A stretch of 64,000 nucleotides of DNA from Ramlibacter sp. (GTDB lineage Bacteria > Pseudomonadota > Gammaproteobacteria > Burkholderiales > Burkholderiaceae_C): positions 1-64,000 of the forward strand of contig JAQZBU010000038.1 of assembly GCA_029237735.1 (NCBI GenBank), written 5' to 3'. Position 1 is the stretch's first letter, and the number at the start of each line of letters is the position of its first letter. The translations under genes were made by a program, and so were the position numbers. The notes below the pieces were generated by a model. The model saw only the letters and a program-made list of their open reading frames with translations. It was not told where the DNA came from and made no database searches. Shown here piece by piece: positions 51,908 to 64,000 of this stretch.

Positions 51908-54810
51908 GGCTTGCCTCCCGCGAACCAGGCTCGCCATCGCGACCCGAAGGGCCGCACGCCCGGCAACACCGGCACGCTGTCGAACTGCGGCCACGATTGC
52001 CGGGGCTCATCGGGTGCTGCCTTGCGGATGCGCACCCGCACGTCGTACCAGCCGGCCTGGCCGGTTACCGGGTCCGAGTTGGAGACACGCGCCCCGTTCC
52101 CCGCCGGAAGCTCCTCGCTGATCAGGTGATTGAGCAGAAAGCCCTTCTCCGATTCATTCGCGTCGTCGGACAGGCCCCACGCGCCCTTGGCCTTGCCGAT
52201 CGCATTCCAGGTCCACACCGTGCCGGGCTCCACGGCCTCGCTGAACCGGCACACGCAACGCACCTTGCCCCAGGCCGACTCGACCCAGATCCACTCGCCA
52301 TCGCCGATGCCCTGCGCGTGCGCCGCCTTCGGGTTCACGTACAACTCGTTGTGCGGGTGGATCTGGCGCAGCCAGGCATTCTGCGAGTCCCAGGAGTGGT
52401 ACATCGCCATGGGCCGCTGCGTCACTGCGGACAGCGGGTATTTGTCAAGGTCGCTGCCCTGCACTTCCAGCGGCGGGTACCAGAAGGGCAGCGGATCGAA
52501 ATACTGCGACACGCGCTCTCGCAGGCGCTCGGGTGGCTGCCGCCCGGCCGTCTTGCCTTGCGCGGCCAGGCGAAAGCGCTGGACGAATTCCGAATAGATG
52601 TGGATGACGATCGGGTCGCAGTCGCGCCGCAGGCCCACGGATTGCGACCACTCGAGATAGCCTCGGTTCCAGTTGCGCATGTAGCGATGGCCGGGCGGCA
52701 TCGTGTGGTGATGCACGCAGTTGTTGGTGGCGTACATCTCCCACTGTTTCGGGTTGGGCTCGCCGCGCAGCGACTGGCTGCCGTCCTTGCCGCGCCAGCC
52801 CGTAAGAAAGCCGATGCCCGAGCCTGGCGCGGTCTGGTAGTTGACGATGAAATCCGGATAGTCGCGATACTTGCGCGCGCCGTCGGGCTGCGTGAAGGCG
52901 GGAAATTTCAGTCGCGACGCAAGCTCGATCAGCACTTCCTGGAATGGCTTGCACTGGCCCAGCGGGGGCAACACCGGCACGCGCACCGAGTCGCAGGGCC
53001 CGTCGTACTCACTGATAGGCCGGTCCAGCATCGACATCACGTCGTGCCGCTCGAGATAGGTGGTGTCCGGCAAGATCAGGTCCGCGAACGCGGTCATCTC
53101 CGACTGGAAGGTGTCGCACACCACCAGGAACGGAATTTTGTATTCACCATGAGCGCCCTTGTCCGCGAGCATGCGCCGCACCTCGCTCGTGTTCATGCTC
53201 GAGTTCCACGCCATGTTCGCCATGAAGAGCAGCAGCGTGTCGATGCGATACGGGTCGCCGCGCCAGGCGTTGGTGATCACGTTGTGCATCAGCCCGTGTG
53301 CGGACAGCGGGTATTCCCACGAAAAGCCCTTGTCGATGCGCACCGGCTCGCCGGCCGCGTCTACGAACAAGTCCTCGGGCGACTCCAGCCAGCCCAGCGG
53401 TGCGCCGTCCAGCGGCGTGTTGGGTTTGACTGCTTCTGGCGTCTTCGGCGGCCGTGCGTTCGGCGGCACGGCGCGCGGGTACGGCGCCTTGTGCCTGAAG
53501 CCACCGGGGCGGTCTATCGTACCCAGCAGCGACATCAGGATCGCCAGCGCGCGGATGGTCTGGAAGCCGTTACTGTGTGCGGCCAGGCCACGCATCGCGT
53601 GGAAGGCGACCGGGTTGCCCGTGACGCTCTTGTGCTCCTTACCCCACCAGTCGGTCCACGCGATCGGGAGTTCGATCGTCTGGTCGCGCGCCGTCATCCC
53701 CATCTCGTGGGCGAGGCGGCGGATCGTCGCCGCCGGGATGCCCGTGATTTCTTCGGCCCACTCCGGCGTGCAGCTGCGCACGCGCTCTTCCAGCAGCTGG
53801 AACGCGGGCTTCACGCGCGTGCCGTCCGGCATCTCGAAGCTGCCCAGCAAGGCCGGGTCGGCGCCCTCCGTGTGGTCGGCCACCGGCCGGCCCGTGATAC
53901 GGTCCCACCAGAGGAAGTTGTGCGGCCGCAGCGGGTTGATCACGTCCCCGTCGGCGTTGCGCATCATCAGCCCGAATTCGTCGGCAGCATCGTCCTGGTT
54001 CACCAGCTGGCCGGCGTTGCTGTAGCGCGCCAGGAAGTCGCGGTCGTACAGACCCAACGCCACCAGCTCGTGGATGATCGCCAGCAGCAGCGCACCATCG
54101 GTGCCCGGTCGGATCGGCACCCACTCGTCGGCGACGGCCGCGTAACCGGTGCGCACCGGATTGATAGCGACGAACCGTCCGCCGTTGCGCTTGAACTTCG
54201 AGATCGCGGTCTTCAGCGGGTTGCTGTGGTGGTCCTCGGCGGTGCCGATCATCACGAACAGCCGGGCGCGATCGAGGTCGGGCCCGCCGAATTCCCAGAA
54301 CGAGCCGCCGATCGTGTAGATCATCCCCGCGGCCATGTTGACCGAGCAGAAGCCTCCGTGCGCAGCGTAGTTGGGCGTGCCGAACTGCCGCGCGAACAGG
54401 CCCGTCAGCGCCTGCATCTGGTCGCGGCCGGTAAAGAGGGCGAACTTCTTCGGGTCGGTGGCCCGAATTTGCGCGAGGCGCTGCTCGAGGATGGCGAATG
54501 CCTCGTCCCAGCCGATGGGCTCGAACTCGCCGGCGCCGCGCTCGCTGCCCGGCTTGCGCCGCAGCGGCTGGGTGAGCCGCGCCGGCGAATACTGCTTCAT
54601 GATCCCCGACGATCCCTTGGCGCAAATGGCGCCCTGGTTCAGCGGGTGATCGGGGTTGCCCTCGATGTAACGCACCTGCGGTCCGTCGCCACTGTCGCGC
54701 AGGTGCACGCGGATGCCGCAGCGGCACGCGCACATGTAGCAGGTGGTGGTCTTCACCTCGGTCTTCGCACTCGCGAGCGGTGCGGCAGTGGGATCGTGCA
54801 ACGGTTTCAT
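51904..54810 (-). CDS. soeA: Sulfite dehydrogenase molybdopterin subunit SoeA
   Basis: 968 residues, DMSO-reductase family. The N-terminal [4Fe-4S] site is CYMCACRCGIRV with a later Cys in GAICAKGSSG. A Mo-bis-MGD enzyme without a Tat signal, so cytoplasmic, like SoeA of Allochromatium vinosum, whose length is about the same. It oxidises sulfite directly to sulfate, completing sulfur oxidation after DsrAB. Other molybdoenzymes of this clade (polysulfide or thiosulfate reductases) are alternatives, but the dsr, tusA and dsrE2 neighbours support SoeA. Confidence 0.85.
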   Translation of the reverse strand: MKPLHDPTAAPLASAKTEVKTTTCYMCACRCGIRVHLRDSGDGPQVRYIEGNPDHPLNQGAICAKGSSGIMKQYSPARLTQPLRRKPGSERGAGEFEPIGWDEAFAILEQRLAQIRATDPKKFALFTGRDQMQALTGLFARQFGTPNYAAHGGFCSVNMAAGMIYTIGGSFWEFGGPDLDRARLFVMIGTAEDHHSNPLKTAISKFKRNGGRFVAINPVRTGYAAVADEWVPIRPGTDGALLLAIIHELVALGLYDRDFLARYSNAGQLVNQDDAADEFGLMMRNADGDVINPLRPHNFLWWDRITGRPVADHTEGADPALLGSFEMPDGTRVKPAFQLLEERVRSCTPEWAEEITGIPAATIRRLAHEMGMTARDQTIELPIAWTDWWGKEHKSVTGNPVAFHAMRGLAAHSNGFQTIRALAILMSLLGTIDRPGGFRHKAPYPRAVPPNARPPKTPEAVKPNTPLDGAPLGWLESPEDLFVDAAGEPVRIDKGFSWEYPLSAHGLMHNVITNAWRGDPYRIDTLLLFMANMAWNSSMNTSEVRRMLADKGAHGEYKIPFLVVCDTFQSEMTAFADLILPDTTYLERHDVMSMLDRPISEYDGPCDSVRVPVLPPLGQCKPFQEVLIELASRLKFPAFTQPDGARKYRDYPDFIVNYQTAPGSGIGFLTGWRGKDGSQSLRGEPNPKQWEMYATNNCVHHHTMPPGHRYMRNWNRGYLEWSQSVGLRRDCDPIVIHIYSEFVQRFRLAAQGKTAGRQPPERLRERVSQYFDPLPFWYPPLEVQGSDLDKYPLSAVTQRPMAMYHSWDSQNAWLRQIHPHNELYVNPKAAHAQGIGDGEWIWVESAWGKVRCVCRFSEAVEPGTVWTWNAIGKAKGAWGLSDDANESEKGFLLNHLISEELPAGNGARVSNSDPVTGQAGWYDVRVRIRKAAPDEPRQSWPQFDSVPVLPGVRPFGSRWRAWFAGGKP

Positions 54811-54869
54811 CAGACCCGATCCTGCGGCAGCAACGCCGGTCGCGGCACTACCCGCATGGGCTATCGGCG

Positions 54870-54887
54870 ATTACCCATTCCGGTAAT
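54870..54887. promoter_or_regulatory. Candidate operator between soeABC and tusA
   Basis: ATTACC-CATTCC-GGTAAT is a perfect inverted repeat of 6-bp arms. Its core, TACCCATTCCGGTA at 54872-54885, closely resembles TACCCCATCCGGGTA at 62407-62421 upstream of dsrA. It sits in the 150-bp divergent region that must hold promoters for both soeABC and tusA-dsrE2-yeeE. Confidence 0.6.
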
Positions 54888-54960
54888 AGACGCTTTCGCC
54901 GCCTTCCCCGCTAATACGTATCGAATACGCGGCGACCGTCATCGCGCAACAGGAGACAAC

Positions 54961-55188
54961 ATGCATTTCGACAAGGAGTTCGACGCATCGGGGCTGGCCT
55001 GCCCGATGCCGATCGTCAAGACCAAAAAGGCGCTGGGCGACCTGGCCGCGGGCCAGGTGTTGCGGGTAGTGGCCACCGACCCCGGCTCCGTGTGCGACAT
55101 GGACGCGTTCGCCGAGCAGGCCGGCCACACGCTGCTCCTTTCCACCACCGAGAACAGCAAGTACGTGTTCTTCCTGCGCAAGGGCTGA
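54961..55188 (+). CDS. tusA: TusA family sulfur-carrier protein
   Basis: 75 residues. GLACPMPIVKTKKAL carries the sulfane-sulfur-binding Cys (about residue 14) and the CPMP signature. TusA delivers sulfur to DsrEFH/DsrC in sulfur oxidisers. The RBS AGGAGA precedes ATG 54961. It starts a three-gene unit with dsrE2 (9-bp gap) and yeeE, the classic tusA-dsrE2 arrangement. Confidence 0.95.
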   Translation: MHFDKEFDASGLACPMPIVKTKKALGDLAAGQVLRVVATDPGSVCDMDAFAEQAGHTLLLSTTENSKYVFFLRKG

Positions 55189-55197
55189 GGAACTCAC

Positions 55198-55668
55198 ATG
55201 GCAACCAAAAAGATGGCGATCATCGCGACCAAGGGCGCGTTGGACATGGCCTACCCGCCGCTGATCCTCGCGTCCACCGCGGCCACGCTCGGCTGGGAAG
55301 TGCAGGTGTTCTTCACCTTCTACGGACTGCAGCTGCTGCGCAAGGACCTGAGCGGCATCGCCATCAGCCCCCTGGCCAACCCTGCCATGCCGATGCCGGT
55401 GCCGATGCCGGTGGTTGTGTCGATGCTGCCCGGCATGGAGGCGATGGCCACGTCGATGATGAAGGCCAAGATGAAGAAAAAGGGCGTGGCTTCGCTCACC
55501 GAGTTGCGCTCGGTGTGCCAGGAAGCCGACGTGAAGTTCATCGCCTGCCAGATGACGGTGGACTTGTTCGATTTCAGCAAGGACGATTTCATCGAGGGCA
55601 TCGATTACGGCGGCGCCGCGACCTTCATGAAGTTCGCGGGCGAAACCGACGTCTGCCTGTTCATCTGA
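55198..55668 (+). CDS. dsrE2: DsrE2-type sulfur-transfer protein
   Basis: 156 residues of the DsrE/DsrF/DrsH fold. MAIIATKGALDMAYPPLILA starts the Rossmann-like core. A conserved Cys is in KFIACQMTVDLFDF, and a hydrophobic Met/Pro segment in the middle (PAMPMPVPMPVVVSML) is typical of membrane-associated DsrE2. It is expected to hand persulfide sulfur to TusA. It lies between tusA and yeeE. Confidence 0.9.
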   Translation: MATKKMAIIATKGALDMAYPPLILASTAATLGWEVQVFFTFYGLQLLRKDLSGIAISPLANPAMPMPVPMPVVVSMLPGMEAMATSMMKAKMKKKGVASLTELRSVCQEADVKFIACQMTVDLFDFSKDDFIEGIDYGGAATFMKFAGETDVCLFI

Positions 55669-55695
55669 TCGGCCGGGCATAGGACGGGAGTTCAC

Positions 55696-56835
55696 ATGGC
55701 AACCACGGCGCTCGACCCCTACACCCTGGTCGTCGGCGGCGGCTTCGCGCTGGCATTCGCCTTCGGGCTGGTTGCCGCGCGGACCAACTTCTGCACCATG
55801 GGTGCGCTCTCCGACATCGTGAACATGGGCCATTGGAGCCGCATGCGCATGTGGCTGCTGGCCATCGCGGTGGCGATCGCCGGCACATCCCTGCTCGCCT
55901 ACACGGGCCAGGTTGACCTCTCGAAGTCGGTTCCCCAGCGGCCGGTGATCGCGTGGCTGTCGCTGCTGGTCGGCGGCGGCGTGTTCGGCGTGGGCATGAC
56001 GCTCGCCGGCGGCTGCGCCAACAAGAACCTTCTGCGCCTGGGCGGCGGCAGCGCCCGCTCGCTGGTCGTGCTGGTGTTCCTGGCGATCGCCTCGTACATG
56101 ACACTCAAAGGACTGTTCGGGCAGTGGCGCGCCACGCTGCTGGACCCGGTGCGAATTGACCTCGCTGCTTACGGATGGACGGACGCCGGCCTGGCCACCG
56201 CCTTGGCGAAAGCCACGGGCATCCCGCCCAAAACGGCACTGACCGCGGTAGCCACGGCCGTTTGCCTGGTACTGGCCGTCTTCGTGTTCAGGGACCGACG
56301 CTTTCGCGCCAACACCGCGCAGGTCGCCGGCGGCATTATCCTGGGCACGCTCGTGGCCGCCGGCTGGTACCTGACCGGGCATCTTGGCTACGGCGAGAAT
56401 CCCGATACGCTGGAAACCGTGTACTTCGCCACCAACACCCGCACGCTGGAATCGCTGAGCTTCGTCGGGCCGCTGGCCTACCTCCTCGAACTGCTGATGC
56501 TGTGGACCGACAAGTCGCTGCGCGTCTCCTTCGGCATCGTCACGGTGCTGGGCGTGGTGGCCGGATCGGCGGTGCATGCGTTGTCGACCGGTCATTTCCG
56601 CTGGGAAGGCTTTGCCTCGCTCACCGACATGCGCAACCAGCTGGTCGGCGCGGTGATGATGGGCTTCGGTGGCGTCACCGCCATGGGCTGCACCATCGGA
56701 CAAGGCCTGACCGGCGTCTCCACCCTGTCGATCGGTTCGCTGCTCGCTGTCACCGGCATCGTGGGCGGCTCCCTGGCGACACTGCGCTTCATCGCCTGGC
56801 GGGCCGAGCGAGAGCCGGTGCTGTCGACTGCGTAG
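55696..56835 (+). CDS. YeeE/YedE (TsuA-like) sulfur-species transporter, full length
   Basis: 379 residues, about nine membrane helices. Cys motifs NFCTMG, GGCANKN and GCTIGQG are in the order and spacing of TsuA-like thiosulfate transporters (three conserved cysteines). It probably imports thiosulfate or another sulfur species for the TusA/DsrE2 route. It follows dsrE2 by 27 bp. This is a second, single-chain copy in addition to the split pair at 46.2-47.4 kb. Confidence 0.9.
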   Translation: MATTALDPYTLVVGGGFALAFAFGLVAARTNFCTMGALSDIVNMGHWSRMRMWLLAIAVAIAGTSLLAYTGQVDLSKSVPQRPVIAWLSLLVGGGVFGVGMTLAGGCANKNLLRLGGGSARSLVVLVFLAIASYMTLKGLFGQWRATLLDPVRIDLAAYGWTDAGLATALAKATGIPPKTALTAVATAVCLVLAVFVFRDRRFRANTAQVAGGIILGTLVAAGWYLTGHLGYGENPDTLETVYFATNTRTLESLSFVGPLAYLLELLMLWTDKSLRVSFGIVTVLGVVAGSAVHALSTGHFRWEGFASLTDMRNQLVGAVMMGFGGVTAMGCTIGQGLTGVSTLSIGSLLAVTGIVGGSLATLRFIAWRAEREPVLSTA

Positions 56836-56928
56836 CGGCCTGGGCCAGCATGCGCAGTGTGCCGGCGGCGGGCGTGGACGGCGAGTGGTGAATCACCAAC
56901 CAACGCAGGACTCCGGCCAGGCCAGGAG

Positions 56929-57092
56929 TCTGCGCGGCAGAGGGCCTGTCATCCCGGACTTGGTCCGGGATCCATCGTGGTGACTCATCGGCAGAGCCCG
57001 AAGGTAACGACGTGAGCTTCTGATGGTAGATTGACGCGCCACGATGGATGCCGGGTCAAGCCCGGCATGACAACTACGCTCTGCCGCGCAGA
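56929..57092. repeat. MITE-like inverted repeat (164 bp)
   Basis: Terminal arms TCTGCGCGGCAGAG and CTCTGCCGCGCAGA frame two inner hairpins: ATCCCGGAC-TTG-GTCCGGGAT and TGCCGGG-TCAA-GCCCGGCA, with CCATCGTGG and CCACGATGG also pairing. The whole is a nested palindrome of the kind found as dispersed non-autonomous elements in proteobacterial genomes. It lies between yeeE and the convergent nine-gene cluster and could end transcription from both sides. The region 56836-57095 holds no gene. Confidence 0.8.
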
Positions 57093-57095
57093 GGC

Positions 57096-57536
57096 CTACA
57101 AGTCCCTCGGTCGCACCCGTCGGCGCGGCTCCCACGCGGCCAGCGCGGCAACCAGTGAAGCCCAGGGCAGGTCAGTCAAGCTGCCATGCCGCTCCATCGC
57201 CTTACCCACCATTCGATGCACGTCTGGTTCAGCGGGCGCAAGTTCATGTCGCAGGGCCACGAGGCCGCCGCATTGCAGGCGCAGGCTCTGGACGTGCGTG
57301 AGCGGGCGCGAGGGCGGAGGCAATTTCAGCGCGAAGCGTGCGCGCTCATGGAGCAGCGCCGCCAGCGTGCCGCAGTTGATGCGAGCCACCGGTGACGTGC
57401 ACTCGAGCAGGTCGCGCTCGCCAATCGAACGCCTGTGAACGAGCTCGCAGTTGGCCGTGTGGGCCTGCAGGGCTTTGGCGAAGACGCAGGCGTGCCCGGT
57501 TTCGCAACAGCCCGTGAATCCCGTGACCTCGTCCAT
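57096..57536 (-). CDS. Unrecognised Cys-rich protein, last gene of the dsr-linked cluster
   Basis: 146 residues. Seven cysteines, mostly in the first half (C10, C11, C17, C30, C46, C55, C89), in a GCCETGHAC and NCELVHRR context that could bind a metal or Fe-S cluster. No signal peptide. It is the promoter-distal gene of a nine-gene minus-strand run (62332 to 57096). Not recognised; the Cys pattern and co-location with redox genes suggest a redox role. Confidence 0.6.
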   Translation of the reverse strand: MDEVTGFTGCCETGHACVFAKALQAHTANCELVHRRSIGERDLLECTSPVARINCGTLAALLHERARFALKLPPPSRPLTHVQSLRLQCGGLVALRHELAPAEPDVHRMVGKAMERHGSLTDLPWASLVAALAAWEPRRRVRPRDL

Positions 57537-57549
57537 GGCCCGCCTCGTA

Positions 57550-57768
57550 TCAGTCGTCGCCGTCCGGAGGTGCTTCGCGCACCTGCAGCAGCATGTCTTC
57601 GGCGGCCAGTGGGTTGTCCGCGAACATCACCTTGATGCGGTCACCGGGCCGTCCGGCCTGCGCAGCCCGCAGGGACTTGGCGTGCACCGATGCTTCCTTG
57701 AAAGCGGGGAACTCGGCCAACTTCTCGAGCTGGGCGAAGGGCTTCACTGCGAACACGTAATAGGGCAT
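57550..57768 (-). CDS. Unrecognised small protein (72 aa)
   Basis: 72 residues, starting MPYYVFAVKPFAQLEKL and containing an amphipathic helix and a strand-like IKVMFADNPLAAED. No Cys. It resembles small ferredoxin-like alpha-beta proteins annotated only as hypothetical. ATG 57768 lies eight bases after the stop of the S24-like gene. Conserved placement inside the cluster is its main support. Confidence 0.55.
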   Translation of the reverse strand: MPYYVFAVKPFAQLEKLAEFPAFKEASVHAKSLRAAQAGRPGDRIKVMFADNPLAAEDMLLQVREAPPDGDD

Positions 57769-57776
57769 GGTTGGCT

Positions 57777-58142
57777 TCAGACGTAATGTTTGGTCAAGCT
57801 GCGCCGGCCGGGCACGGCCTTCTGGATGACGACGCCGTGCACCGCCGATAAATCCGGCAGCGACAGATCCACCAGGCCGGCGCGCGGGTTGAGCGCACGC
57901 AGGCACCAGCCCTCGCCGCGCCGCGCCAGCTGGCGGAAGATCCACTCGCTGCGCAGTTGCGCCAGCACGAAGCTGCCGTCCTTCAGTGCACCATCCGGCT
58001 CGACGATGATCATGTCGCCCTCGTTGAATTCGGGCGCCATGTCGTCGCCGAGCACGCGCAGGGCGAAGGATTCGCCGCCGCTGCAGCCCGCGTCCTCCTG
58101 GTCGGCGCCGGCCGGCGCGGGGGTGTTAAAGCCACAAGTCAT
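57777..58142 (-). CDS. LexA/S24-fold protein lacking the Ser-Lys dyad
   Basis: 121 residues. The S24 peptidase fold is recognisable from LRVLGDDMAPEFNEGDMIIVEPD and FVLAQLRSEWIFRQLARRG. In LexA the first motif carries the catalytic Ser (SGxSM), but here it reads GDDM; the Lys position in the second motif is Arg (IFRQL). The N-terminal HTH is absent. It therefore cannot self-cleave as LexA does and is probably a binding or sensing domain. It overlaps the 2Fe-2S reductase gene by ATGA. Confidence 0.7.
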   Translation of the reverse strand: MTCGFNTPAPAGADQEDAGCSGGESFALRVLGDDMAPEFNEGDMIIVEPDGALKDGSFVLAQLRSEWIFRQLARRGEGWCLRALNPRAGLVDLSLPDLSAVHGVVIQKAVPGRRSLTKHYV

Positions 58143-59614
58143 TCGAAGGCCTCCACGTGGATTTGCGCCATAGGCACGCCCGAGCCGGCGAGCTCGGCCA
58201 CCAGCGTCTCCGCAAAGCGCTGCGGCCCCGCGATGTAGAACGCGCAGTCGATATCGAACAGGTCGGCGCGCATCGCGGCGGCGATCTGCAGCGCGCCGGC
58301 CACTTCGTCGCTGTCGGTGGACAGCGTGTATTCGAATGGGTCCAGCGCCTCGGACCAGGCGCGGCACTGGTTGGCCATGAAGTGGCCGTCCGGCCGCGTG
58401 GCCAGCCAAAACAGGGAGACCGAGGGCGCCGCATCGAGCGACAGCGCGTGTTCGATCAGGCTCTTGACCGGTGCGAAGCCCGTGTCGCAGGCAGCAAACA
58501 CCAGCGGCAGGCTGCCTTCGGCGAGCGAGAACTGCCCGTGCGGTCCCCAGATCGTGACGGGATCGCCGACCGTGAGCGCCCCGCCGAAAAGGCGCGCGGC
58601 CAGCGGGTCCGCGTCGTCGCGCGGTACGAAGAAATGCAGGTTGCGGTCGTCGCAGGGGCAACTCGCCACGGCCAGCTGCGTGCGCACGCCATCGCCCGCG
58701 TCCAGGCCCAACGTGACCGACTGGCCCGCAAGAAAGCGAAGGCGCTGGCTGCGCGGCGTCTGCAGGTGCAGCAGCATCGTGTCCTGCGCCAGCGGGCGGA
58801 TCGCGCGCACAGCGGCCACGATCTGCTGCTGCGGGATATCGGCCGGGCCTGCCGCTTCCAGCGTTTCAAGCGTGAGCTCGCTGCTCGCGGCCGTATGAGC
58901 ACAGGCCAGCACGTAACCCTGCGCCCGCTCGGTCTCGGAGAGCGCGTAGTCGGTGTGATGGATGCGGGCCACTTCGCCGGACGTCACCCGCACCTTGCAC
59001 ATGCCGCAGGTGCCGTTGCCGCAACCGTAGTTCAGGTGCAGGCCCGCCCGGACACCCGCCTGCAGTAGCGAGTCGTGTCCTTCCACGGCGAATTGGTGTC
59101 CGGTGGGCCGTACGGTCACAAGCGCCGTCATTACTTTAAGCAAGTCGTCCATGATGTCGAGTGCATCCGCGGGTTCAGTGGCCAGCACACTTGCAAGGCC
59201 GTCGTCGAGGCGGCGCTGCAGGTCGTCGAGCGCGCCGGCATCGGCCTGCGGCTGTCCGCGCAGTTCGAGCATGCGGTCCCGCAGCGCGATCACCAGCGCG
59301 TGGTAGCGCTGCAGGTGGTGGCGCACGTCGGCCAGTTCCTGGCTCTGGCGGAACATGCGCTGGGCCAGCACCTCCTGGCTGGGCAGCAGCCGCTCGCGCA
59401 CACGGCGGCCAAAGGATTCGTCGCGGATCTGCGCGACCCGCTCGGCCATGCCCGACACCTCGAGCTTCGCCTGCGGGTAGAGCGCCAGCAGCGCCTCCGT
59501 CGACACCAGGCCGTCGGTCAGTTCGATCTCGCCCAGGCGCACGCGTTGCTGGAGCACGCCCCGCGGCACCTCCACCAACTGCGCGGCGCGCCAGATCGTT
59601 ACCCATTGCGCCAC
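58139..59614 (-). CDS. 2Fe-2S ferredoxin / FAD-NAD(P) reductase with extra N-terminal domain
   Basis: 491 residues. About 1-150 is an unusual helical region (VTIWRAAQLVEVPRGVLQQR, reminiscent of a helix-turn-helix or MerR-like start, then a long coiled helix). A plant-type 2Fe-2S ferredoxin domain follows (CGNGTCGMC, later Cys in YVLACAHT), then FAD- and NAD-binding domains (RFLAGQSVTLGL, VFAACDTGFAPVKSLIEHAL). It is a soluble electron-transfer reductase, typically serving an oxygenase; the TauD-like gene beside it does not need one, so the partner is unclear. Confidence 0.8.
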   Translation of the reverse strand: MAQWVTIWRAAQLVEVPRGVLQQRVRLGEIELTDGLVSTEALLALYPQAKLEVSGMAERVAQIRDESFGRRVRERLLPSQEVLAQRMFRQSQELADVRHHLQRYHALVIALRDRMLELRGQPQADAGALDDLQRRLDDGLASVLATEPADALDIMDDLLKVMTALVTVRPTGHQFAVEGHDSLLQAGVRAGLHLNYGCGNGTCGMCKVRVTSGEVARIHHTDYALSETERAQGYVLACAHTAASSELTLETLEAAGPADIPQQQIVAAVRAIRPLAQDTMLLHLQTPRSQRLRFLAGQSVTLGLDAGDGVRTQLAVASCPCDDRNLHFFVPRDDADPLAARLFGGALTVGDPVTIWGPHGQFSLAEGSLPLVFAACDTGFAPVKSLIEHALSLDAAPSVSLFWLATRPDGHFMANQCRAWSEALDPFEYTLSTDSDEVAGALQIAAAMRADLFDIDCAFYIAGPQRFAETLVAELAGSGVPMAQIHVEAFE

Positions 59615-60534
59615 GGCTCCTCCTCGGGCGCGACCCGGTCCAGGAAGCGGGCGCGCAGCAGCAGGCGCGGCTGCAGCGAGTTATCGTGGAACGCGCTGCG
59701 ATCGTGCAGCACGTTGTGGCCGACCACGCCCATGCCTGCCTGCAGGCGCACGCGGAACATACCGGGAAAGCCCGGGTCGCACAGCAGCGCTTCGAGCCGG
59801 GCGACGGCGGCGCGCGTCGGCGCATCGTTTTTCCACTCGATGGAACGGGTGCGCGCCGTGTAGCGCATGTGCATCCCGCCATCCGCATCCACGGCAAACA
59901 CCGGCCCGGTTTGCGCCGCCCGCGCGACGCCATTCTCGTCGGTGCGCTCGGGAATAGTCATCGCATCGGGCTGCATGAGCGCGCGCACGTGGGCCGGCGA
60001 GATGTCTCGCAGCGCGATGTAGGCCAGTTCGTGGTCGAGCAGCGTATTGTCTCCGCCGCGCATGGCGGGGCGGACGCAGTGCAGGATCATCCCGCGGATG
60101 CGCCGCTGCTGCGGGTGGTAATAGCCATCCGTATGCCAGCGGATCGGCAGGTCGGTGTAGGGAATGAACCCGCCGTGGCCGTCGGCCTGGCCGGAGACGG
60201 TGATGCGCGAGATGCCATCCTCGTCAGCCAGCCAGTTCGCGTCGAGCCGGCGCAGGCCAAGCTGCGCGCCCAGGAGTCGCGGAAGCGCGCGGTCGTCCAC
60301 GCCGTGCGCGGAGCGGTACAGCGCAAAGCCGCAGCGCTCGATTCGCCTCTGCAAGGCTTTCAGTTCGGCGGGAGCCAGTTCTCGCGCATCGCCCACATCG
60401 ACCATCAGCTCCTCGATGCGGGCAGGGCGGCACGCAAGCTTCCAGTCGCGCCAGCGGCGATAGGTCACGGCGTCCTCGAGGTCGAACGGGCTGGCCGCAA
60501 GGCGGCAGTGGCGTTCCGGTGCTGCGACTTCCAT
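59599..60534 (-). CDS. TauD/TfdA-family Fe(II)/2-oxoglutarate-dependent dioxygenase
   Basis: 311 residues. The metal-binding H-x-D is in PIRWHTDGYYHP and the distal His in GHNVLHDRSAF; Arg residues for 2-oxoglutarate lie further on (RLLLRARFLD). It belongs to the TauD/gamma-butyrobetaine-hydroxylase superfamily; taurine or other sulfonate oxidation would suit a sulfur cluster but is not shown. It overlaps the downstream reductase gene by 16 bp. Confidence 0.82.
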   Translation of the reverse strand: MEVAAPERHCRLAASPFDLEDAVTYRRWRDWKLACRPARIEELMVDVGDARELAPAELKALQRRIERCGFALYRSAHGVDDRALPRLLGAQLGLRRLDANWLADEDGISRITVSGQADGHGGFIPYTDLPIRWHTDGYYHPQQRRIRGMILHCVRPAMRGGDNTLLDHELAYIALRDISPAHVRALMQPDAMTIPERTDENGVARAAQTGPVFAVDADGGMHMRYTARTRSIEWKNDAPTRAAVARLEALLCDPGFPGMFRVRLQAGMGVVGHNVLHDRSAFHDNSLQPRLLLRARFLDRVAPEEEPWRNG

Positions 60535-60537
60535 GTG

Positions 60538-61191
60538 TCAGTCTCCCGTAGTTCCACTGCGCCGCGCGCGCCGCGCCGCGGGCTCGAACAGGTCGCGCAT
60601 GCTCCGCTGCACCATCGCGACGGCCTCAGGCGCCTCCGCGGCCATGACCTGGTCGAGCACCCATCGGCGGTCCTTCTCCGGCAGCGCTGGCTCCAGCCGC
60701 CGGCCGAGGTATCGCAGGAAGCCGAAGTCGGGATTGAAGCCGGTGTCACCGGCGGGAAGGCTTGGGTCCGCGCCGAACTCGGCGTAGTGGCTCGTGACCT
60801 CGTTGATGAGATCGATAAAGGTGTCGGCGTGCGAGGGCTCGCCGGGGGCGGTCGGCCCCAGCAGGTCATCTTCGTTGTCCTGCAGGATGCGCGCGAGGTG
60901 ATGCACCAGGGCAGCAGTGAAGGCCAGCCGCTGCGTGGCGTCCAGCCGTGCATGGGCGATCCGGTCCGTCACCGCGACCAGGAACACCAGCACCTCACGC
61001 AGGAAGGCGAAGTACGGCGTGCCGACTTCCACGTCGAACCCGGCGCGGCGCATGCGGTCCAGCGTGTGGCGCGCCACACGCCACACGATGAAGGCCATCG
61101 CGCTGGCTTGCTGCTCCGCGCTCTTCGCGGGCCCGGCGCGGAACCACTGGCTCTTCAAGCGCGGCGTGGGAGGCGGTGTGTGGACACGCAT
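60538..61191 (-). CDS. Unrecognised helical protein in the dsr-linked cluster
   Basis: 217 residues, predicted mainly alpha-helical and soluble. Notable segments: RVARHTLDRMRRAGFDVEVG, YFAFLREVLVFLVAVTDRIA, HHLARILQDNEDDLLG. No cysteines, no signal peptide, no known motif. It begins 18 bp after the DsrC-like gene and ends 3 bp before the dioxygenase, so it is part of the same unit. Not recognised. Confidence 0.6.
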   Translation of the reverse strand: MRVHTPPPTPRLKSQWFRAGPAKSAEQQASAMAFIVWRVARHTLDRMRRAGFDVEVGTPYFAFLREVLVFLVAVTDRIAHARLDATQRLAFTAALVHHLARILQDNEDDLLGPTAPGEPSHADTFIDLINEVTSHYAEFGADPSLPAGDTGFNPDFGFLRYLGRRLEPALPEKDRRWVLDQVMAAEAPEAVAMVQRSMRDLFEPAARRARRSGTTGD

Positions 61192-61209
61192 GGTGCGGCC
61201 TTCCGCGGA

Positions 61210-61539
61210 TCAGTAGCCGCCCTTGCCCAGCGGCTGCGGCAAGCCCGCGATCTTTGCGCCCTGCTTGGCGGGCCCGAGGGGGCACAGGTCGTACAGCGCC
61301 TTGCTGTCGCAGCCGGGCAGCACGGAGGCCATGTCCTTGAGCATGACGCGGAAGTTGGGCGTGTGGCCGTGCTCGCGGTACTGTTCGCGCATGTAATTGA
61401 CGATCGCCCAATGACCGTCGGTCAGTTCGATGCCTTCGGCGGCCGCGATGACCCGCACCACCTCGTCACGCCAATCGGGCTCCAGCAGGTAGCCCTGGTC
61501 GTCGGTCTCCAGTTCCTGCCCGTCGACGATGTAGCTCAT
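61210..61539 (-). CDS. DsrC/TusE-family protein lacking both catalytic cysteines (RspA-like)
   Basis: 109 residues, clear DsrC/TusE fold: IVDGQELETDDQGYLLE, WAIVNYMREQYREHGHTP and the C-terminal arm GPAKQGAKIAGLPQPLGKGGY (read in two parts, ending at 61210). In DsrC the arm is GPAKQACRFAGLPKPTGCV; here CysB is Ala (about 95) and penultimate CysA is Lys (about 106). The only cysteines are 77 and 86, at non-canonical positions. DsrC-family members without the two cysteines have been called RspA and are thought to be regulatory. It cannot carry sulfur as DsrC does. Confidence 0.88.
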   Translation of the reverse strand: MSYIVDGQELETDDQGYLLEPDWRDEVVRVIAAAEGIELTDGHWAIVNYMREQYREHGHTPNFRVMLKDMASVLPGCDSKALYDLCPLGPAKQGAKIAGLPQPLGKGGY

Positions 61540-61567
61540 GGAAGCAAGCTCCTGGTGTGTGATGAAA

Positions 61568-62112
61568 TCATTCGGGTGCGCCCACGGCGGCGGCGGACTT
61601 GTGCCCGACGAACAGGCCGCAGCCCAGGCGCCGGTGGCCGCCGACACCGGCCTCCAGCATGGTCAGTGAGTGCTGGGGTGATAGGCCGTCCAGCATCAGG
61701 CTGTAGCCCGCCAGCCGACCACCCTCCAGCCGGTGGCGCAGGCCGCAGATCGCGCGGCACTGCACACCGAGGCTTTCCAGCTCGGTGTTCACTGCCTGCA
61801 TGAAGAGAATCTCGTCATCGCCGCCGGCGACCACATGCGCGAACAGCGTGGCGTGGTGCCGCAGTTCGCGCTGCTGCGCGGCGCCCACTCGCAAGCGGTG
61901 TCCGGCAAGGGACAGCTCGGACGCGAAACCATCGCGTCATTGCCACCATTGCGCACGAGGTTGAGCCGGTGCACGCCCGCCATGGGCGAGTCCGCCAGCC
62001 ACGGCAGCGCGCGATCCAGCGCCTCGGCCAAGGCGAATCGGTAATCGCCGGGCAACGTATCGCCCTCCACCGGGAAGGCCACGTCGATCATGGTTGCGGG
62101 GCGCGCGTTCAC
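61568..62112 (-). pseudogene. Cas6/Cmx6-like protein, frameshifted
   Basis: N-terminal half (GTG 62112, AGGAG upstream): IDVAFPVEGDTLPGDYRFAL, then HRLNLVRNGG. C-terminal half in another frame: LAGHRLRVGAAQQRE, then the Gly-rich RNA-binding-type loop GVGGHRRLGCGLFVGHK. Joined by one inserted base near 61937 (…NGGND-RDGF…) they form one protein of about 180 residues of the type I-MYXAN Cas6/Cmx6 family. No CRISPR array or other cas gene is in the window. As read, the protein is truncated; an indel error is the alternative. Confidence 0.75.
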
Positions 62113-62116
62113 GGTG

Positions 62117-62332
62117 CTACTCCTGCGGCTGCGAGCCGGCCCACGCCAGCAGGGCCTGGCCCCATTCGCGCGCGGTGATCGGGTCGATGTCGAACACGGT
62201 GAAGCGGCTGCCTTCGCGGATGCGGGTGCGCAGCAGGCTCATGCCGCCGGCGTCATGGTCGAGCTGTTGCAGCTCGATCTCCTGCCGGCCCAGGGGCGCG
62301 CGCAACTTGGCAATGGATTTCAGGCTTGTCAT
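62117..62332 (-). CDS. Unrecognised small protein, first gene of the dsr-linked cluster
   Basis: 71 residues: MTSLKSIAKLRAPLGRQEIE, then RTRIREGSRFTVFDIDPITA and a Trp-rich helical end. No Cys or signal peptide. It opens the nine-gene minus-strand run and is separated from the Cas6-like gene by 4 bp. ATG 62332 begins the conserved-looking part; the upstream extension crosses the regulatory palindromes and was rejected. Confidence 0.6.
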   Translation of the reverse strand: MTSLKSIAKLRAPLGRQEIELQQLDHDAGGMSLLRTRIREGSRFTVFDIDPITAREWGQALLAWAGSQPQE

Positions 62333-62381
62333 CCGGGGCTTTCCAAGCTGGCATTGAGCGCGAGCAGGCGCCATCGCGTCC

Positions 62382-62421
62382 ATACCCGGTACGGGTGGCC
62401 GTCGAATACCCCATCCGGGTA
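62382..62421. promoter_or_regulatory. Two TACCC/GGGTA operator-like sites upstream of dsrA
   Basis: Two sites in the 182-bp divergent region: ATACCCGGTACGGGTGG at 62382-62398 and TACCCCATCCGGGTA at 62407-62421. The second closely matches TACCCATTCCGGTA upstream of soeA/tusA. They are 95-130 bp before dsrA and 50-90 bp before the minus-strand cluster, so they could regulate both. Confidence 0.6.
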
Positions 62422-62514
62422 GTGCCCTCCCAATCAACGAGGGTGATAGCGCGGGCGTCGCTGCAAGGCGACCATTCGCCCATTCCAGCGCTCACTGACC
62501 CAGGAGACAAGCCC

Positions 62515-63810
62515 ATGGCCAAGAAGCCCTACGACACGCCGATGCTCGACCAGCTGGAGAGCGGCCCCTGGCCGAGCTTCGTCACCGGCCTGAAGCGGCT
62601 GGCCAAGGACAGCGACTACATGGCCGACCTGATGGGCCAGCTCGAGACCTCGTACCGCACTAAGAAGGGCTACTGGAAGGGCGGCACGGTCGGCGTCTTC
62701 GGCTACGGCGGCGGCGTGATTCCGCGCTTCACCGAGCTGAAGGATGAAAACGACAAGCCGGTCTTTCCCGACGCGGCCGAGTTCCACACCCTGCGCGTGC
62801 AGCCGCCGCCGGGCATGCACTACACCAGCGACGTGCTGCGCAAGATGTGCGACATCTGGGAGGAGCACGGCTCGGGCCTGATCGCCTTCCACGGCCAGTC
62901 GGGCGACATCATGTTCCAGGGCGCCAAGAGCGACAAGGTGCAGGACGCCTTCGACGCGCTCAACGAGCTGGGCTTCGACCTGGGCGGCGCGGGACCGGCG
63001 GTGCGCACATCGATGAGCTGCGTGGGCGCCGCGCGCTGCGAGCAGAGCTGCTACGACGAGGGCCGCGCCCACCGCACGGTGATCAACACCTTCGTGGATG
63101 ACATTCACCGACCCGCCCTGCCCTACAAGTTCAAGTTCAAGTTCTCGGGCTGCCCGAACGATTGCATGAACTCCATCCAGCGCGCCGACATGGCCGTGAT
63201 CGGCACTTGGCGCGACAACATGCGCTCTGACGAAACACTGGCGCGCAAGTGGTTCGACAAGCACGGCATGAACGAGCTGGTGAACGACGTCGTCACCCGC
63301 TGCCCCACCAAGGCCATCATGCTCAAGGAAGTCAAGGACCTGAAGGACGGCCCGAAGAAGACCTGCGTGAAGCTGAGCGACACGCACGGGCTGGAGATCG
63401 ACAACGGCGACTGCGTCCGCTGCATGCACTGCATCAACGTCATGACCGGCGCCCTGGCCCATGGCACGGACACCGGCGCGACCATCCTGATCGGCGGCAA
63501 GCGCACGCTCAAGATCGGCGACCTGATGGGCACGGTGGTAGTGCCGTTCATGCCGCTGAAAACCGACGAGGACTTCGCGGCGCTGGTCGACCTGGGCCAG
63601 CGGGTGATCGACTTCTTCGCCGAGAACGCACTGGAGCACGAGCGCACCGGCGAAATGATCGAGCGCATCGGCCTGGTGAATTTCCTGGAAGGCGTCGGTA
63701 TCGAGATCGACCCGAACATGGTGTCCACGCCCCGGACCAATCCCTACGTCCGCACCGATGGGTGGGACGACGAAGTGGCACGCATCAACGCCAAGAAGGC
63801 CGCGGCCTGA
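62515..63810 (+). CDS. dsrA: Dissimilatory sulfite reductase alpha subunit
   Basis: 431 residues. Sirohaem-[4Fe-4S] ligands lie in SMSCVGAARCEQSCYDEG (C169, C175) and FSGCPNDCMN (C213, C217). A ferredoxin domain uses C284, C300, C303 and C306 (GDCVRCMHC). Length and spacing match A. vinosum DsrA. With soeABC, tusA and dsrE2 nearby, the reverse, sulfur-oxidising role is expected. RBS CAGGAG, nine bases before ATG 62515. dsrB follows after 25 bp. Confidence 0.95.
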   Translation: MAKKPYDTPMLDQLESGPWPSFVTGLKRLAKDSDYMADLMGQLETSYRTKKGYWKGGTVGVFGYGGGVIPRFTELKDENDKPVFPDAAEFHTLRVQPPPGMHYTSDVLRKMCDIWEEHGSGLIAFHGQSGDIMFQGAKSDKVQDAFDALNELGFDLGGAGPAVRTSMSCVGAARCEQSCYDEGRAHRTVINTFVDDIHRPALPYKFKFKFSGCPNDCMNSIQRADMAVIGTWRDNMRSDETLARKWFDKHGMNELVNDVVTRCPTKAIMLKEVKDLKDGPKKTCVKLSDTHGLEIDNGDCVRCMHCINVMTGALAHGTDTGATILIGGKRTLKIGDLMGTVVVPFMPLKTDEDFAALVDLGQRVIDFFAENALEHERTGEMIERIGLVNFLEGVGIEIDPNMVSTPRTNPYVRTDGWDDEVARINAKKAAA

Positions 63811-63835
63811 CACCGCATACCGAAGGACAAGCGAC

Positions 63836-64000
63836 ATGGCCCAAGCTCACCGCACCCCCATCGAAAGCGGCTGCCCGGACAACAAGCAGTACATGCATCC
63901 GGCGCTGCTGAAGAACTACGGCAACTGGCGCTACCACGACCGGCCCCGGCCCGGCGTGCTGCACCATGTCTCGCACACCGGTGACGAAGTCTGGTCGGTG
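63836..64000 (+). CDS. dsrB: Dissimilatory sulfite reductase beta subunit (partial at right edge)
   Basis: The first 55 codons only; the gene runs past the window. RTPIESGCPDNKQYMHPALL and GNWRYHDRPRPGVLHH are typical of the DsrB N terminus. It would form the alpha2beta2 enzyme with DsrA. The rest of the dsr operon (dsrEFH, dsrC, dsrMKJOP) is presumably beyond 64 kb. Confidence 0.93.
   Translation, partial: MAQAHRTPIESGCPDNKQYMHPALLKNYGNWRYHDRPRPGVLHHVSHTGDEVWSV

Follow-up and report, generated by a model that had tools for sequence, protein, structure and literature searches.

A 64,000-nucleotide stretch of a Ramlibacter sp. genome (contig JAQZBU010000038.1, positions 1 to 64,000; in the following, the window) contains a cluster of nine adjacent minus-strand genes at positions 57096-62332, which is divergent from dsrA (ATG at 62515). 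Counted outward from dsrA, the genes are g9, g8, g7, g6, g5, g4, g3, g2 and g1. They are separated by gaps of 3-28 bp or overlap by 4 and 16 bp, and their order recurs in 20 loci from the bacterial family of the window genome. The arrangement reported in a first-pass annotation, nine genes without meaningful gaps facing dsrAB, was confirmed. Between 56800 and 62600 no minus-strand terminator-like site was found, and a single minus-strand promoter-like site was detected at 59160, compared to 0.4 expected.

Table 1. Positions of the cluster genes, dsrA and the operator-like sites in the window
Feature	Position	Strand	Evidence or remark
dsrA, first gene of the dsr operon	62515..63810	+	TIGR02064 508.8 bits
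Divergent promoter region common to g9 and dsrA, 182 bp	62333..62514	.	
g9, DUF6967 (PF22295), 71 amino acids	62117..62332	-	Pfam 102.6 bits, cut-off 27
g8, Cas6/Cmx6-like gene, frameshifted in the window contig	61568..62091	-	two reading frames
g7, DsrC-like protein, ends KGGY	61210..61539	-	Pfam DsrC 109.8 bits
g6, unassigned all-helical protein, 217 amino acids	60538..61191	-	AlphaFold2 pLDDT (predicted local distance difference test) 90.1
g5, TauD-type Fe(II)/2-oxoglutarate dioxygenase	59599..60534	-	Pfam 66.6 bits, cut-off 27
g4, 2Fe-2S flavin reductase with added N-terminus	58139..59614	-	profile matches, predicted fold
g3, S24/LexA-fold protein	57777..58142	-	PF00717 56.4 bits, cut-off 23.3
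g2, small unassigned protein, 72 amino acids	57550..57768	-	17/20 family loci
g1, Cys-rich unassigned protein, 146 amino acids	57096..57536	-	14/20 family loci
Operator-like site 1, TACCCGGTACGGGT	62383..62396	.	dsrA-g9 promoter region
Operator-like site 2, TACCCCATCCGGGTA	62407..62421	.	24 bp from site 1
Operator-like site before tusA	54849..54863	.	tusA divergent to 968-amino-acid soeA-like gene
Second dyad before tusA, TACCCATTCCGGTA	54872..54885	.	23 bp further, read by eye

Proteins encoded by the cluster

Four of the nine proteins had initially been regarded as unrecognised. One of them, g9, is a member of DUF6967, whereas the description stands for g6, g2 and g1, for which Pfam gave nothing up to E 1 and NCBIfam nothing below E 0.05. 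The g9 gene is present in all 20 family loci and in 7 of the 274 genomes sampled from the class. DUF6967 also exceeds its cut-off in two class genomes without dsrA (G106 and G223). In the surroundings of these genes, inspected by eye, a DsrE-like gene is located nearby in one stretch (L081) and no dsr gene was recognised.

For g8 the assignment as Cas6/Cmx6-like is correct for the family, PF09559, but the gene is not intact in the window contig, where it is split over two frames. Matched separately, its halves (61945-62109 and 61580-61924) reach 38.9 and 99.4 bits against PF09559, and 31.2 and 75.8 against TIGR02807, whose equivalog cut-off is 98.85. The intact sister copy in genome G280 scores 127.2 bits against the latter model. 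The likeness is to type I-MYXAN Cas6/Cmx6 (TIGR02807, PF09559), since three intact relatives of g8 pass TIGR02807, and also to type I-B Cas6 (8fcj_B), which the Cas6-like profile of the class matches at 3.8e-24. The gene is a single reading frame in 18 of 19 relatives, and the 19th (L306) has no match to the N-terminal half. The frameshift in g8 may be real or an assembly error.

Membership of g7 in the DsrC/TusE fold family is supported by scores above the cut-offs for Pfam DsrC and for TIGR03342 (98.4). In contrast to DsrC, g7 lacks the cysteines at the two functional C-terminal positions of the sulfur carrier and has a conserved KGGY end, which was found in 50 of 52 minus-strand dsr-linked homologues (window copy counted). 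It had been described as a DsrC-like protein without its cysteines; this is correct for the C-terminal pair, but two other cysteines are present. Cys-free paralogues of the DsrC family have been called RspA. The g7 gene was detected in 17 of the 20 family loci. A third gene of the DsrC family (G000:C14:75494-75796, L002) is located downstream of the dsr operon, outside the window.

The best fold match of the helical protein g6 is the cytochrome b assembly chaperone Cbp3/UQCC1 (6rwt), with a score that is indecisive for a helical bundle. There is no sequence match of g6 to this chaperone; its profile matched none of the solved structures by sequence, and a Foldseek search gave nothing below E 0.16.

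For g5, g4 and g3 the initial descriptions hold. As a TauD-type dioxygenase, g5 passes the Pfam cut-off and retains the HxD...H metal ligands together with the arginine for 2-oxoglutarate (H134, D136, H277 and R290 in an alignment of 55 sequences). The 2Fe-2S reductase g4 indeed has an extra N-terminal domain. Residues ~2-50 are predicted to adopt a MerR-like winged helix-turn-helix (wHTH) fold, with a weak match, and are followed by a helical linker, a 2Fe-2S ferredoxin domain (residues 166-241) and an FAD/NAD reductase. As far as this weak fold prediction indicates, g4 resembles a 2Fe-2S flavin reductase to which a MerR-type domain has been fused. The S24-fold protein g3 passes PF00717 and lacks the Ser-Lys dyad: an Asp replaces the Ser, and by eye there is no Lys at the aligned place (alignment of 7).

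Relatives of g1 were found in two other Cas6-like loci (L215 and L257) and have the cysteines and the motif LQCGGL in common with it; the row of L125, which was in the wrong frame, was left out of this alignment. Directly downstream of g1 lies an inverted repeat (56947-57072) with 41-nt arms and 44 nt between them, resembling an intergenic repeat element.

Linkage of the cluster to dsr

The nine genes are a real accessory set that is strictly linked to dsr. In a sample of 220 genomes of the family (dsrA at E < 1e-30, N-terminus of g4 at E < 1e-50), the same 19 genomes contain dsrA and the g4 N-terminus, which is found in none of the 201 dsrA-negative genomes; this count leaves out four weak g4 matches (E near 1e-4) in genomes without dsrA. 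The common gene order was found in 20 family loci, namely the window, G280, G525 and 17 others. The complete set of nine was detected in 12 of these, while g9, g8 (one half or both), g6, g5, g4 and g3 are present in every one. Among relatives of the same genus, 1 of 12 (G280) has g6. Two other genomes of the order contain the five-gene core g9-g8-g7-g6-g5 without g4-g1.

The linkage extends to the class, from which 274 genomes were drawn evenly; the counts ignore kinship. In this sample 94 genomes are dsrA-positive, 87 with a dsrA above the cut-off and 7 more with the gene in pieces. The Cas6-like profile matches 91 genomes, 87 of them dsrA-positive, and g6 was found in 90, of which 85 are dsrA-positive. 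If the genes had no connection to dsr, they should be equally frequent in genomes without it. This was not the case, either for g4 (19/19 versus 0/201) or for the Cas6-like gene (87/94 versus 4/180). In the four Cas6-like genomes without dsrA (G067, G093, G127 and G186) the gene is near a contig end, and a TauD-type gene lies between the two. Five dsrA-positive genomes (G070, G079, G207, G211 and G238) have neither the Cas6-like gene nor g6. As far as the data go, G207, which is 99% complete, is a true exception.

Open reading frames were clustered in 87 fetched class loci, 83 of which contain dsrA. The common divergent order is a TauD-type gene (54 loci), a gene for a 64-amino-acid protein (50), often one for a 235-amino-acid protein (25), the Cas6-like gene (61), the DsrC-like gene (52 minus-strand copies) and a gene for a 68-amino-acid protein (29). 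In 26 loci g6 is located some kilobases beyond the rest of the cluster. The 235-amino-acid family is encoded between the 64-amino-acid and Cas6-like genes (L044, L066 and L118 are examples); its tested members match nothing in Pfam or NCBIfam. Two more proteins of the Fe(II)/2-oxoglutarate type (c12 and c17, named by eye) and a 114-amino-acid family also recur near dsr in loci L043-L130, 2-10 kb past the Cas6-like gene. A scan of named genomes gave 318 stretches that encode Cas6-like relatives. Among the best 80 of these, 59 contain dsrA, including records of Thiothrix, Thiohalobacter and Sulfuricaulis; the remaining 21 include many short contigs. Judged by these names, the class is probably Gammaproteobacteria.

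The expectation that the whole set would recur beside dsrAB in unrelated sulfur oxidisers was not borne out, since among the loci compared the nine-gene set is restricted to the family of the window. The class shares the TauD-type, Cas6-like and DsrC-like genes, with g6 further off. A search of 264 loci outside the family gave no g4 N-terminus; the matches there are reductases that lack it. In a phylum sample, none of 48 dsrA-positive genomes outside the class encodes the Cas6-like protein or g6. Of nine dsrA loci fetched from outside the class, four (L270, L272, L273 and L274) keep a TauD-type gene and a small S64 or DUF6967 gene divergent from dsrA, and these four have no Cas6-like or g6 gene. 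Because the Cas6-like gene and g6 are limited to the class while the TauD-type and small genes persist outside it, the cluster likely grew in layers: the TauD-type gene and small proteins came first, then the Cas6-like gene, the DsrC-like gene and g6 in the class, and finally g4-g1 in the family.

Palindromic sites upstream of dsrA and tusA

The promoter region shared by g9 and dsrA contains two operator-like palindromes (Table 1), which in the family of the window combine TACCC with CGGGT(A). Over the 20 family gaps, 44 TACCC/GGGTA half-sites were observed (letter shuffles: mean 9.4, maximum 21), and seven of these gaps contain no full site by the pattern used. In the class, TAYCC-N2-8-GGRTA is present in 32 of 56 divergent gaps (letter shuffles: mean 0.5, maximum 5). 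The stricter TAYCC-N6-GGRTA is located within 350 bp before dsrA in 42 of 80 class loci, compared to 3 sites elsewhere in 1.38 Mb. In 37 whole genomes picked for a site of the TAYCC type in the dsrA promoter, TAYCCC-N4-GGGRTA occurs 49 times (in 31 of the 37), 29 of these occurrences being the dsrA promoter, and its reversed control 8 times. Since the counts come from the same promoters that supplied the patterns, more weight should be given to the controls elsewhere in the DNA than to the shuffles. The palindrome was not found in the nine loci fetched from outside the class. The class form has no match in the window and was not found in L267-L269.

Similar sites precede tusA. In the gap between tusA and the soeA-like gene, a 21-base stretch (54844-54864) matches the sites of the dsrA promoter. 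TACCC-N4-GGG[CTG]T is present before tusA in 12 of the 13 family loci that show this gene (dinucleotide shuffles: mean 0.01), with a total of 29 matches on both strands of the 404 kb of window and family loci. As sites are located before dsrA and also before tusA, the sequences point to a single regulator for the dsr and tus genes. The earlier suggestion that the cluster may control Dsr gains from the operator-like sites at both positions; the MerR-like fold of g4 adds weak support.

Two cluster proteins were considered as binders of the palindrome. For g7 this is weakened by three of the 20 family loci that lack g7 and still keep a site. That g4 binds it throughout the class is unlikely, given the absence of its N-terminus from loci outside the family.

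Possible role of the cluster

The cluster had been put forward as an undescribed system. In Kato et al. 2015 (PMC4643136), however, which was the one paper with this name that the searches turned up, an rDsr-associated gene cluster (rDAGC) is named with reference to work from 2014 (Watanabe et al.). It lies upstream of dsr in dsr-bearing sulfur oxidisers, and a role in dsr regulation was suggested for it; our cluster resembles it in both position and proposed role. Compared to rDAGC, which is known here by citation, the family of the window adds g4, g3, g2 and g1 in fixed order. Searches of open papers, as far as their accessible text goes, did not yield the composition g9-g1, the strict coupling to dsr, the architecture of g4 or the palindrome. 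The cluster as such is known, and these four aspects are new here.

The cluster is inherited with dsr, and the promoter that they share contains operator-like palindromes with relatives before tusA-dsrE2. Its function is probably to control or maintain the Dsr machinery for sulfur oxidation. We tentatively propose, at somewhat less than even confidence, that it is an operon with accessory and control functions for Dsr; that g4 or another cluster protein exerts this control is what we infer. The same degree of confidence applies jointly to the view that the nine genes are a family-specific extended form of rDAGC. The nine genes would form one divergent operon whose chief task is control and upkeep of the reverse Dsr system. 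The palindromes would be bound by a regulator whose gene belongs to the cluster or accompanies it, and which jointly sets dsr and tus expression; the best candidate in the family of the window is g4. Its MerR-like domain may contact the DNA, and the redox state would be read by its 2Fe-2S cluster and flavin, an arrangement comparable to SoxR with a built-in reductase. The putative wHTH, the 2Fe-2S cluster and the nearby palindromic sites resemble the SoxR/MerR superfamily; in contrast to its members, g4 carries a fused Fer2-type ferredoxin domain and an FAD/NAD reductase, and its DNA binding is putative. For the other proteins, possible roles are those of a partner without catalytic function in the DsrC relay (g7), an assembly factor (g6), a hydroxylase that acts on a protein or substrate of the Dsr pathway (g5) and, where the gene is intact, a helper that binds RNA (the Cas6-like protein). 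A bolder version is doubtful: g4 would found a new regulator design (MerR-like domain, 2Fe-2S ferredoxin and its own NAD(P)H-flavin reductase), which senses the electron state and switches reverse Dsr and tusA-dsrE2 via paired TACCC/GGGTA palindromes, with the remaining cluster as the accessory kit of the regulon.

The same genes could instead serve maturation and assembly, with g6 as chaperone, the dioxygenase modifying a Dsr protein or cofactor, the reductase supplying electrons, g3 and g7 holding partners and the regulator encoded at an unlinked site. This is somewhat doubtful. It is improbable that the Cas6-like protein is a repurposed endoribonuclease that adjusts the levels of the dsr mRNA segments by cleaving hairpins in the transcript. 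The three tested intact relatives above the equivalog cut-off would fit such an activity, and a His, presumably catalytic, is aligned in 63 of 65 Cas6-like sequences; but g8 of the window is broken and has Tyr in place of this His, as do L308 and L314 by eye. Strong hairpins (z < -2) occur in the dsrA-dsrB gap (52% of 67) and the dsrC-dsrM gap (72% of 64), compared to 11% of 46 for dsrH-dsrC. They are also found elsewhere (dsrB-dsrE, 53% of 15; dsrK-dsrL, 28% of 47), as would be expected of terminators or stabilisers. The transcript levels of dsrEFH and dsrC above dsrA in A. vinosum on sulfide, as given in PMC3397948, would agree with segment-wise cutting. Unlike Cas6 repeats, however, the hairpins share no more sequence within a genome (4.72 nt) than between genomes (4.63 nt; 47 genomes). 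Processing of shared dsr hairpins by Cas6 was rejected accordingly: the hairpins are real but have no common sequence within a genome. In the class (L043-L130) they recur in the same gaps, dsrA-dsrB and dsrC-dsrM, with differing sequence.

Sulfonate catabolism is quite improbable. Here, the TauD-type enzyme would free sulfite from an organosulfonate and feed the sulfite-oxidising Soe system, in line with the family of g5 and with the soeA-like and tusA genes ~2-5 kb from g1. However, the NCBIfam models closest to g5 are those of trimethyllysine, aminoethylphosphonate and butyrobetaine dioxygenases, each with a score far below its cut-off. No transporter is encoded among the nine genes, and this reading would not explain why the others are linked to dsrA. 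Highly improbable is that the genes merely travel with dsr without serving it, or are a remnant of CRISPR (clustered regularly interspaced short palindromic repeats). Joint inheritance and the presence of a Cas6 relative are compatible with this, but dsrA-positive genomes keep g6 and the Cas6-like gene even where they are unlinked; on one contig of G109, dsrA is located at 487 kb, the Cas6-like gene at 529 kb and g6 at 63 kb. Among the 20 largest repeat families there is no CRISPR-like array within 54000-64000, and when eight window proteins and the sister Cas6 were compared with defence models, only Cas6 matched. In contrast to a CRISPR Cas6, g8 is coupled to dsrA, is broken in the window contig and has no array or other cas gene in its region. 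A role in CRISPR or defence was rejected because neither an array nor other defence matches are present in the window region.

Much environmental sulfur oxidation runs through reverse Dsr. A literature search aimed at dsr control, which was not exhaustive, turned up no title about a regulator dedicated to dsr. Confirmation of the palindrome and its binder would make control of dsr directly testable in cultured sulfur oxidisers. The Cas6 relative and the helical family of g6, which in the class occur nearly one-to-one with dsrA, would be of use as genome markers and would add new components to a well-studied pathway.
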